Shown here: positions 3,499 through 17,195 of the stretch, in pieces
Layout of the letters: every line of letters starts with the position of its first letter
Numbering within the stretch: position 1 is the stretch's first letter
Source of the DNA: a virus
Length of the DNA stretch: 21,408 nt
Virus record (IMG/VR): IMGVR_UViG_3300033816_000950
Span: 1 to 21,408 of that record
Strand: one strand, 5' to 3'
The notes under the pieces: generated by a model
The model's database searches: none
What the model saw: only the letters and a program-made list of their open reading frames with translations
Told to the model about the DNA's origin: nothing
Program-made: the position numbers and the translations under genes

Positions 3499-3777
3499 CT
3501 AAACTAAATCAAGTTCTGCTTCTTTTTCCTCAACTTTTTCTACTTCAGCAAATAAACCTTCTATAGGAAGGAATCTAGTTGCATCATAATATTCATAAGG
3601 AAATGATTTTTTAGACAACTGGACTTCTTTAAGTACAAGTCCCAGTTTACCTGGTTGTAATCCCATATTGACAACAGATACTACAGTATATACTATACCT
3701 TCTTCTATCCATTCTTCTACTGGAATCTTTGCAGGCTTTTTAGATGAATCAATGCAAATGACCTTCATATTCCTCAA
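3499..3777 (-). CDS. Small conserved Bacteroidota phage protein, unknown (92 aa)
   Basis: The MKVICIDSS start (Met4, position 3768) followed by IPVEEWIEEGIVYTVV, a QPGKLGLVLKEV strand and a YYDATRFLPIE block matches a small protein I remember from Bacteroidota phages and mobile elements, built like a small beta barrel. Its function is not known to me. Met4 is probably the true start because relatives begin at MKV. Either start overlaps the end of the ClpS-like gene (29 or 20 bases), so the two are likely translationally coupled. The C-terminal tail is acidic (EKVEEKEAELDL). Confidence 0.7.
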   Translation of the reverse strand: MRNMKVICIDSSKKPAKIPVEEWIEEGIVYTVVSVVNMGLQPGKLGLVLKEVQLSKKSFPYEYYDATRFLPIEGLFAEVEKVEEKEAELDLV

Positions 3778-4003
3778 TTTCTGTTATTAAATCTAATTCT
3801 TCTAAATTATTTTTTAATTCAAACATTTCAAGAAAATCACCAGATTTAACAGAACACTTACCTTTTTCATGAGTTATAATTGCACACTGTTCAGCTTGTA
3901 AAGGTTCATGTTTACAATACCTCATAAGACATGCAACTACATATAAAAAGTCATGGACATCATCATTATGCAATACTAACTTATGTGTTTTTGTATCTTC
4001 CAT
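3749..4003 (-). CDS. clpS: ClpS-like adaptor of the Clp protease (N-degron recognition)
   Basis: ClpS binds destabilising N-terminal residues and hands the substrates to ClpA/ClpC-ClpP. This 84-aa protein has the ClpS signature LVLHNDDVHDF (residues 9-19) and QAEQCAIITHEKGKCSVKSGD (36-56). Asn13, Asp14, Asp15 and His45 keep the exact 32-residue Asn-to-His spacing of E. coli Asn34 to His66, the pocket that holds the free alpha-amino group. The residue at the place of gatekeeper Met40 is Phe19. Only 12 residues precede Asn13 against 33 in E. coli, so the N-terminal extension used for delivery is nearly absent. That could make it a decoy that binds but does not deliver, which is inference. It is the gene after the helicase and overlaps the next gene. 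Confidence 0.85.
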   Translation of the reverse strand: MEDTKTHKLVLHNDDVHDFLYVVACLMRYCKHEPLQAEQCAIITHEKGKCSVKSGDFLEMFELKNNLEELDLITEIEEYEGHLH

Positions 4004-4032
4004 ATACTTCTAATATAAGAAAAATATTAGTC

Positions 4033-5127
4033 TTAATCTAATTTAACTCCAAAATCTTTCCACATTACTTTACTCTGATCAAATCCTTCTAAAGCTTCTT
4101 TAACCCATTTTTCATCTATTGTATCCATATAACATAAGATATGTACAATAGCTTTGTCATCTGGGTTTAACCGGAGTAACCTACCAATCCTCTGACTTGC
4201 TTTTCTCTCATTACCATATGCATGCATAATAATACCTTGTTTAAGATTAGGAATATTTACACCCTCATTTAACTGCAGTACAGTAGAAAGTTTATTAATT
4301 TTTCCTTCCTTAAACATTACAAGATTATCTTCAGATTCTTTATTACCACTATGATAGCTGTATTCACATAATCTGTCTGCTTGGGCTTGAGTATTAGCAA
4401 ATACAATACATTTAGTCTGTATACTATTCATTAAGATTTTAGTATACTTTTCTTTAGTAGGATATTCCATCATTGCTTTCATCCTCATAACTCTAAGTAT
4501 ATGCATGTTTCCAGATCCAACATCAATTCTTCTAGACCAATATATGTAATTAGACTCTTCATCTGTTACCCACTTTCTACCACCTTGGTCTACTACATAA
4601 TTTTTTTCTTTAGATAAATTTAATTGGTGTACTACTATTTGATAATCATTTAGTATTCCATTCTCTACAGCATCATCTGCTTTGAATGTATATACTACTG
4701 GACAGAATTCTTGCACTAACTTACCTTTCTCTGAATAATCACGTTTTGGTGGAGTACCAGTTAAACCAAGGATTTTACCTTTATATAACTGTAGAAACCC
4801 CCGGTGACTATCTAACAAACTATGAGCTTCATCCAAATAGACAGCATCATAATCATTAGGTACATGCTTATTCAAACTTAGATAAGTGGTAAATACCATT
4901 CTATCTAATAAATGTTCTTTTCCAAACTTTACAGCATCATCTTTCCAAGACTGAAAGATTGATCTCTTTGGAGCCACAATAAGACACTTCATTAGAGGTG
5001 TAGTATTATTCTCAATATGTGTAAGACCTACAAGAGTTTTCCCAACACCAGTTCCAAGAACAACACAACATCTCTGTTTACCTTCAGTTGCTTGTAATGC
5101 TTCTAATTGAACTTCATTTTTTGTCAT
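4033..5127 (-). CDS. DEAH-type superfamily 2 helicase/translocase (364 aa)
   Basis: Walker A is GTGVGKT (residues 25-31), motif Ia is VAPKRS, motif II is DEAH (99-102), motif III is TGTP (123-126), and motif VI is QRIGRLLR (312-319). Together they give two complete RecA-like lobes. An additional segment (about 165-215) sits between the lobes. At 364 aa it is compact for an SF2 helicase and carries no nuclease or extra DNA-binding domain. UvsW-like branch migration or unwinding in phage replication and recombination is the likely role. The HNH gene lies 4 bases upstream and the ClpS-like gene downstream. Helicase assignment is firm and the exact substrate is inferred. Confidence 0.92.
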   Translation of the reverse strand: MTKNEVQLEALQATEGKQRCCVVLGTGVGKTLVGLTHIENNTTPLMKCLIVAPKRSIFQSWKDDAVKFGKEHLLDRMVFTTYLSLNKHVPNDYDAVYLDEAHSLLDSHRGFLQLYKGKILGLTGTPPKRDYSEKGKLVQEFCPVVYTFKADDAVENGILNDYQIVVHQLNLSKEKNYVVDQGGRKWVTDEESNYIYWSRRIDVGSGNMHILRVMRMKAMMEYPTKEKYTKILMNSIQTKCIVFANTQAQADRLCEYSYHSGNKESEDNLVMFKEGKINKLSTVLQLNEGVNIPNLKQGIIMHAYGNERKASQRIGRLLRLNPDDKAIVHILCYMDTIDEKWVKEALEGFDQSKVMWKDFGVKLD

Positions 5128-16157: not shown

Positions 16158-17195
16158 ATGGATATTTTAAATTTCGTTTCCTGGGTTAGAGGAAAAAGAA
16201 CAGTAAAGACTGTAAATCCTGCAAAAACATTATTACCTATAGCACTTAAAGATGGTAGAAGAGATGACAGATGGTTAACTGGTGCAATTACAGTTGTAGA
16301 CTTTGCAACTGAAGTTTCTGCTTATGTAGCTCCTGGTCCAGCAGGACCGGCTGGTTCTCAAGGTCCAACAGGTCCTCAAGGAGTTCCAGGTCCAGTGGGT
16401 CCAGCAGGATTAAACTGGCAAGGGTCTTGGTCTGCATCAGGAACATATGTTGCTGATGATGCTGTAGGATATAATGGAGCATCTTGGTTTTGTTTAAATC
16501 CAGTTGGTCCATCTGCAACTAACCCTGCTTCAGATCCAACTAATTGGGCATTACTTGCATCTCAAGGTGCTACAGGACCACAAGGACCTCAAGGTATTCA
16601 GGGACCAGCTGGTAGTGGAGGTACACCAGGTACAATAATAGGACAAACTGATGTTTGGAATGGTTCTACGTGGTTGCCAACTTTTGGATTATCTGTAAAC
16701 CCTTCAACAGGAGTTATCGGATCAGCAAGAATTGGTATTGGTTTAACAACTCTTAATACTACAGGTTATCCATTAAGAATAGCAACTAATAATGGAGGTA
16801 TGAGAATTGATCAAACTACATCTGGTTCTGGTATTTATAATATGTGGACAAGTCCAACAGCTACGTTTCAATTTGGATTGAATCCTCCTGTACCAGGAAA
16901 TCCTGTGTTTGATAACTCAATTTATTTTACACAAAATAATTCAAATGCAATTAAATTTGCAACTGGTTTTAATACAGGTGGTGGAGATAGATTTATTATT
17001 CAAGGAGATGGTCAAGTAACTGTTGGTTCTACTTATGCAACTAATCCGACTGCTGCGCTTGTTGTTAAAAGAGCTGATTTTGAAGGAATTGAAATTGAAA
17101 ATCCAGGAGCAGGTATTATATTAACATCTCCAAATGGAACAAGATATAAATTATCTGTAAATGATGGTGGTGGTCTTTCAGTTGTAGGTGTATAA
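16158..17195 (+). CDS. Collagen-like tail fibre or receptor-binding protein (345 aa)
   Basis: Residues 1-59 form a possible virion-attachment part. The first Gly-X-Y run (GPAGPAGSQGPTGPQG... about 60-84) is followed by a carbohydrate-binding-like module (NWQGSW...YVADDAVGYNGASWFC...W, 86-130). A second Gly-X-Y run (GATGPQGPQGIQGPAG, 137-152) and a beta-rich C-terminal part of about 190 residues complete it. The two collagen segments imply a trimeric rod with a small sugar-binding knob inserted. An ATG at 16158 is preceded by an AT-rich leader. The fibre role is strongly supported and the ligand is unknown. Confidence 0.85.
   Translation: MDILNFVSWVRGKRTVKTVNPAKTLLPIALKDGRRDDRWLTGAITVVDFATEVSAYVAPGPAGPAGSQGPTGPQGVPGPVGPAGLNWQGSWSASGTYVADDAVGYNGASWFCLNPVGPSATNPASDPTNWALLASQGATGPQGPQGIQGPAGSGGTPGTIIGQTDVWNGSTWLPTFGLSVNPSTGVIGSARIGIGLTTLNTTGYPLRIATNNGGMRIDQTTSGSGIYNMWTSPTATFQFGLNPPVPGNPVFDNSIYFTQNNSNAIKFATGFNTGGGDRFIIQGDGQVTVGSTYATNPTAALVVKRADFEGIEIENPGAGIILTSPNGTRYKLSVNDGGGLSVVGV

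Follow-up and report, generated by a model that had tools for sequence, protein, structure and literature searches.

The clpS Locus and Its Phage Lineage

The DNA analysed here, referred to as the window, is a virus record of 21,408 nucleotides (21.4 kb; IMG/VR record IMGVR_UViG_3300033816_000950), the relatives of which are found on contigs of up to 123 kb. Its minus strand carries a clpS-like gene flanked by a helicase gene upstream and by a small gene, gp92, downstream (Table 1). Both the place and the length of the clpS reading frame were confirmed, and the PF02617 (ClpS) profile recognizes its product with an E value of 2.5e-15 and 56.4 bits, the curated cut-off being 23.

Table 1. Features of the window around clpS and elsewhere.
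Feature	Position	Strand	Basis
gp92, downstream gene, 89 aa (ATG 3768) or 92 aa (TTG 3777)	3499..3768	-	weak SH3-like fold
clpS-like gene, 84 aa, without N-terminal extension	3749..4003	-	PF02617, AF2 model, PDB ClpS matches
Codon His45 (E. coli His66)	3869..3871	-	alignment and phage tree
Codon Phe19, gatekeeper position (E. coli Met40)	3947..3949	-	alignment with hosts
Codons Asn13-Asp14-Asp15, pocket motif (E. coli Asn34-Asp35-Asp36)	3959..3967	-	alignment
Short A+T-rich element	4004..4032		
In-frame TAG, two codons 5' of the clpS ATG	4010..4012	-	reading of window DNA
DEAD/ResIII helicase gene, conserved upstream neighbour, independent anchor	4033..5127	-	Pfam and PHROG
Tail fibre protein	16158..17195	+	

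On G001, a 122.8-kb contig that is syntenic in this region, TerL shows about 25 % identity over 90 % to the crAss-like phage cr55_1, and PHROG matches of terminase, portal and major head to crAss-like families are located on G001 as well, not on the window itself. Judged by these structural genes of G001, the window falls within a distant crAss-like (Crassvirales) lineage, and its host is therefore probably a Bacteroidota bacterium. The cellular ClpS proteins nearest to the window protein come from Bacteroidota, save for one record (L089) titled Alphaproteobacteria; its ClpS is almost identical to that of Bacteroidales L080, and the record is probably mislabelled or a mixed bin.

To anchor the locus independently of clpS, 76 viral loci were sampled by their helicase gene, without reference to ClpS. 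In 68 of them, clpS lies directly behind the helicase. The other eight comprise five loci from which clpS and the gene after it are both missing, two whose ClpS-like protein does not show the usual pocket motif, and one truncated by the end of its contig. The A+T-rich element right before the clpS ATG (TATATTAG) recurs in many relatives and may serve as a promoter or leader. A protein with a Cys-rich stretch (GCLYNCSYCY), perhaps a radical SAM enzyme, is conserved near the clpS region in these phages (L208:11623-12519 and L226:6613-7479), and the tail fibre protein of the window is collagen-like with a CBM_5_12-like stretch.

The start of gp92 and the end of clpS share 20 bases in the window and in most relatives, and this overlap, TATGAAGGTCATTTGCATTGA, reads Y-E-G-H-L-H-stop in one frame and M-K-V-I-C-I in the other. 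The phage-specific C-terminal tail ESYMH was considered as a functional element and set aside, as it is at least partly explained by the overlap with the gp92 start. Among the lineage sequences, gp92 is found at the clpS end in 75 of 82, and when searched from the gp92 side, 50 of 51 homologues sit behind a ClpS-like gene. The joint absence of both genes from five helicase-anchored loci suggests that clpS and gp92 form a unit, with synteny of related phages as the plainer alternative. No match to gp92 was found among 50,697 phage records, and a fold search came no closer than SH3-like hits at Z 5.8 and Foldseek E 0.23, too weak for any claim of a YccV/HspQ- or ClpF-like partner.

A ClpS Core Without Its N-Terminal Extension

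The AF2 model of the window protein, built on 68 aligned sequences, has a mean pLDDT of 93.6 and follows the b-a-a-b-a-b order of the ClpS fold. PDB ClpS matches range overall from Z 13 to 15.6, with M. smegmatis ClpS at Z 15.6 (VIA), E. coli ClpS (3o2b_A) at Z 14.4 and an rmsd of 2.1 over 78 residues, and Caulobacter ClpS at Z ~14, whereas L7/L12 falls well below at Z 9.7. Searched by sequence, the PDB yields weak ClpS matches (E 0.05–0.1). The window protein is a member of the ClpS family. An earlier note, made from the DNA letters alone, had described a phage ClpS with the E. coli pocket spacing; family and phage context are borne out by the profile, the model and the crAss-like genes of G001, and the alignment places Asn13, Asp14, Asp15 and His45 on E. 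coli Asn34, Asp35, Asp36 and His66, with Phe19 at position 40. The alignment of helix 3 with Glu79, Glu82 and Lys84, the ClpA-contact residues of E. coli ClpS (PMC12493166), is ambiguous in register, and neither phage nor Bacteroidota ClpS match these residues clearly.

The clpS ATG is preceded in frame by Lys and Tyr codons and then by the TAG listed in Table 1, so that a longer window protein is impossible. A mis-called start hiding a longer ClpS is thereby ruled out for the window; it is feasible in a minority of relatives, chiefly in one subclade. In the model, residue 5 is the counterpart of E. coli Ser26, the first strand begins at residue 7, and the extension proper therefore amounts to about 4–6 residues versus 25 in E. 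coli. The 12 against 33 residues given by the earlier note are thus correct as a count before the pocket Asn, but not as the size of the extension itself. By structure, the missing part is almost the entire N-terminal extension, and the window ClpS has no disordered extension of a length that could enter the unfoldase pore.

The Short Start in Phages, Hosts and Other Viruses

Pooling two ClpS searches and one helicase search gave 82 distinct ClpS sequences of the phage lineage, at about 43–82 % identity to the window protein. Twelve residues precede the pocket Asn in 79 of these and eleven in the remaining three. An upstream in-frame ATG is absent in 62 of the 82 genes, and 40 of the 82 have an in-frame stop at most 12 codons upstream. 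Over clpS codons 1–77 the median dN/dS is 0.27, indicating purifying selection. As the length of 11–12 is fixed in 82 sequences at this dN/dS, the short start is not a matter of chance.

ClpS is present in 284 of 296 sampled Bacteroidota genomes, and the sampled host proteins carry about 23–36 residues before the Asn, including four in which the automatic anchor had picked an Asn further upstream and was reset by eye. The phage form is thus shorter than the ClpS of its presumed hosts as well, none of those sampled having the same short extension. A host ClpS used as query against the virus collection retrieved about 52 further distinct viral ClpS, in which the first ATG lies 23–37 residues before the Asn, with one ambiguous case (L415), and the pocket His is present. 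One of the viral loci (L462) combines a full-tail clpS with a nearby helicase that is 52 % identical to that of the window; since this related phage keeps the full tail, tail-lessness is specific to the clade of the window. The short form appears as one group in trees (SH-aLRT 87–88), which rest on 73–74 columns, too few to place the group deeper. One divergent clpS used as a query matched only itself.

In the subclade L028–L044, an in-frame upstream ATG, in several members a TAATG at the helicase stop, would give 23–24 residues before the Asn. The 33 bases upstream of clpS are more conserved there (0.85, third positions included) than the third positions of the gene (0.63), which makes regulatory DNA more likely than a longer protein.

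Variation of the Pocket

Asn13 is kept in 82 of 84 phage sequences and Asp14 in 83 of 84. The pocket His, fixed in 74 of 74 Bacteroidota ClpS, is replaced by Asp or Asn in 21 of the 84 phage relatives. On the phage tree it changed about 11 times, mostly to Asp, a rough count because many forks of this tree are weak. In L270 and L279 the Asn/Asp motif is lost, yet the gene and its neighbour gp92 are retained. The gatekeeper is Phe or Tyr in the phage clade; the Phe19 singled out by the earlier note is the normal host residue, present in all 74 Bacteroidota ClpS compared, and was therefore rejected as a phage trait.

The expectation that the protein should bind N-degrons agrees with the pocket residues of the window and is weakened by the recurrent His change and the two motif-less lineages among its relatives. 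Judged by the conserved residues, N-degron capture is likely in many members of the clade, whereas the changes at the His site and the loss of the motif indicate that it may not be the conserved, let alone the sole, task of the clade. Residues such as Thr6-His7-Lys8, Tyr21, Ala24 and Arg/Lys28 are fixed in the phages only, the hosts being variable or having Glu/Asp at these sites, and helix-3 positions 58 and 61 are more hydrophobic in phage than in host ClpS.

Possible Function of the Tail-Less Protein

During the handover of N-degron proteins in E. coli, ClpA takes the ClpS tail into its channel and pulls on it, and delivery is inhibited when this entry is blocked (PMC9663308). ClpC-type N-domains are encoded in the Bacteroidota host genomes that were read, and Aat was found in 7 of 10 hosts. 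Neither ClpP nor Aat turned up in the 14 large phage contigs searched, which may be incomplete. With the pocket kept and the tail absent, binding without delivery would therefore be expected, provided that the E. coli behaviour can be transferred from ClpA to ClpC. The kept pocket and lost tail suggest that the phage may jam the ClpS degradation pathway of its host. The reading we tentatively favour, granting it somewhat less than an even chance, is that the tail-less, pocket-bearing core kept by this crAss-like clade, presumed phages of aquatic Bacteroidota, counteracts ClpS-ClpC(P) N-degron turnover in the host. In its favour stand the fixed short start, set against the longer tails of hosts and of other viruses including the related L462, the purifying selection, the near-invariant Asn13 and Asp14, and the independent tail-less ClpS of a Vibrio jumbo phage.

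Going by fold and residues, such a core would dock on the ClpC N-domain and/or hold N-degron proteins in its pocket. If the pore works as in E. coli ClpAPS, its loops would find no tail to pull, so that the complex would not be remodelled and the cargo would not be handed over. Speculatively, host ClpS might then be displaced or its substrates sequestered, which could stabilise N-degron proteins useful to the phage or relieve phage proteins from ClpCP action. What speaks against the antagonist is that the need for the tail was established for ClpAP and may not hold for the ClpC of Bacteroidota; mycobacterial ClpC1, that of M. tuberculosis, treats ClpS differently from ClpA (PMC6274998). The ambiguous register of the ClpA-contact residues, the changes of the pocket within the clade and the upstream ATG of L028–L044 weigh on the same side. 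A wider version, in which the tail was deleted from host ClpS more than once, in the crAss-like clade and in a Vibrio jumbo phage, to give a dominant-negative N-degron inhibitor with recurrent change of the pocket His, is conceivable, and we hold it with noticeably more reserve.

Should a tail-less ClpS block delivery, it would be a means by which phages oppose the N-degron pathway of bacteria, for which few in vivo roles are known, and it would provide a natural dominant-negative tool for the role of N-degron turnover in infection. The phage protein would likewise serve as a natural experiment on whether ClpS can do without its tail when its partner is ClpC, the ClpA-type protein seen in the Bacteroidota genomes that were read.

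Rather unlikely in our view, while still a serious contender, is a working adaptor that would let the phage turn host ClpCP on proteins of its choice, either because ClpC delivery needs no long tail or because gp92 or host ClpS supplies the function. The pocket is mostly retained in the clade, a phage ClpS has been proposed in print to bring targets to host ClpAP (PMC7824862), and gp92 overlaps clpS, follows it in nearly all gp92 loci and disappears together with it. On the other side, every host ClpS sampled and almost every other viral ClpS has kept the tail, E. coli ClpS does not deliver when its tail is unable to enter the pore (PMC9663308), and a contact of gp92 with ClpS or ClpC would be hypothetical.

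We consider it less probable again that the ClpS fold was repurposed to bind one specific protein of host or phage, possibly gp92, via a changed surface, with N-degron recognition being incidental. The repeated His to Asp/Asn change, the retention of two pocket-less copies, the phage-only residues and the hydrophobic helix-3 positions would all fit such a protein, but the near-invariance of Asn13 and Asp14 is hard to explain with an unused pocket, and an Asp at the His site could still hold a free amino group. Finally, a host gene carried as an ordinary spare, its start shortened and with no function linked to the missing tail, would agree with the occurrence of clpS in many phages and its absence from some helicase-anchored loci, and is nevertheless disfavoured to the point of being very improbable by the length fixed across the whole identity range, the purifying selection and the regular position behind the helicase.

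Comparison with Known ClpS Proteins

Phage clpS genes as such are already known and annotated, in print at least since 2021, when jumbo-phage ClpS was suggested to feed targets into ClpAP of the host (PMC7824862). In the open-access literature we found a single passing mention of phage ClpS and no study devoted to it, nor a description of the tail-less clade, its fixed length or the recurrent His change.

Chromosomal ClpS of Bacteroidota share about 40–53 % identity with the window protein and have the same core, with the NDD-x-x-x-F motif, QAEQC and GKC-V-K-x-G. Unlike the phage proteins, they have a tail of about 17–29 residues before the core and a fixed pocket His, often carry Glu/Asp in helix 1 where the phages have Arg/Lys, and lack the phage C-terminal tail read in the overlap with gp92. 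E. coli ClpS (PDB 3O2B, 1MBU and others) agrees in fold and in the pocket Asn/Asp/Asp/His, and differs by its 25-residue extension into the ClpA pore, the Met40 gatekeeper and about 6 additional core residues past the pocket His.

ClpS is also encoded by jumbo or huge phages, namely Pseudomonas phage Paride, PA5oct, Sinorhizobium phage Phosso, Agrobacterium phage Atu_ph07 and the genomes LR756504, LR756502 and LR745206. Those of Paride, Phosso, Atu_ph07 and the three LR genomes have 25–29 residues before the pocket motif, unlike that of the window. The three LR genomes (L045, L046 and L047), from phages of about 640 kb, each combine a full-tail ClpS with two to three ClpP-like genes, one of which has an internal TGA in LR756504. 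In Paride, clpS adjoins an Hsp20 gene (L343:904-1752), and small heat-shock genes lie near clpS in Phosso and Atu_ph07 too. GAP32 and Kaldavass encode a 177-residue protein with a ClpS core that follows an N-terminal domain of about 70–80 residues and has an altered pocket motif (L348:1321-1854 and L347:1282-1815).

A parallel is found in Vibrio phage 2.275.O, a jumbo phage (MG592671.1) whose clpS (L346:1492-1848) neighbours genes for IF-3, RpsU and a KTSC protein, and starts behind a GAGGAG ribosome site. Its ClpS-like protein (AUS02627.1) has 12 residues before the Asn, as in the window clade, and its pocket His is replaced by Asp, as in some members of this clade. With 118 residues, a long acidic C-terminal extension and another host, it differs from the window protein, to which it is not closely related in sequence. 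As a single case, the Vibrio protein hints at convergence on a tail-less ClpS.
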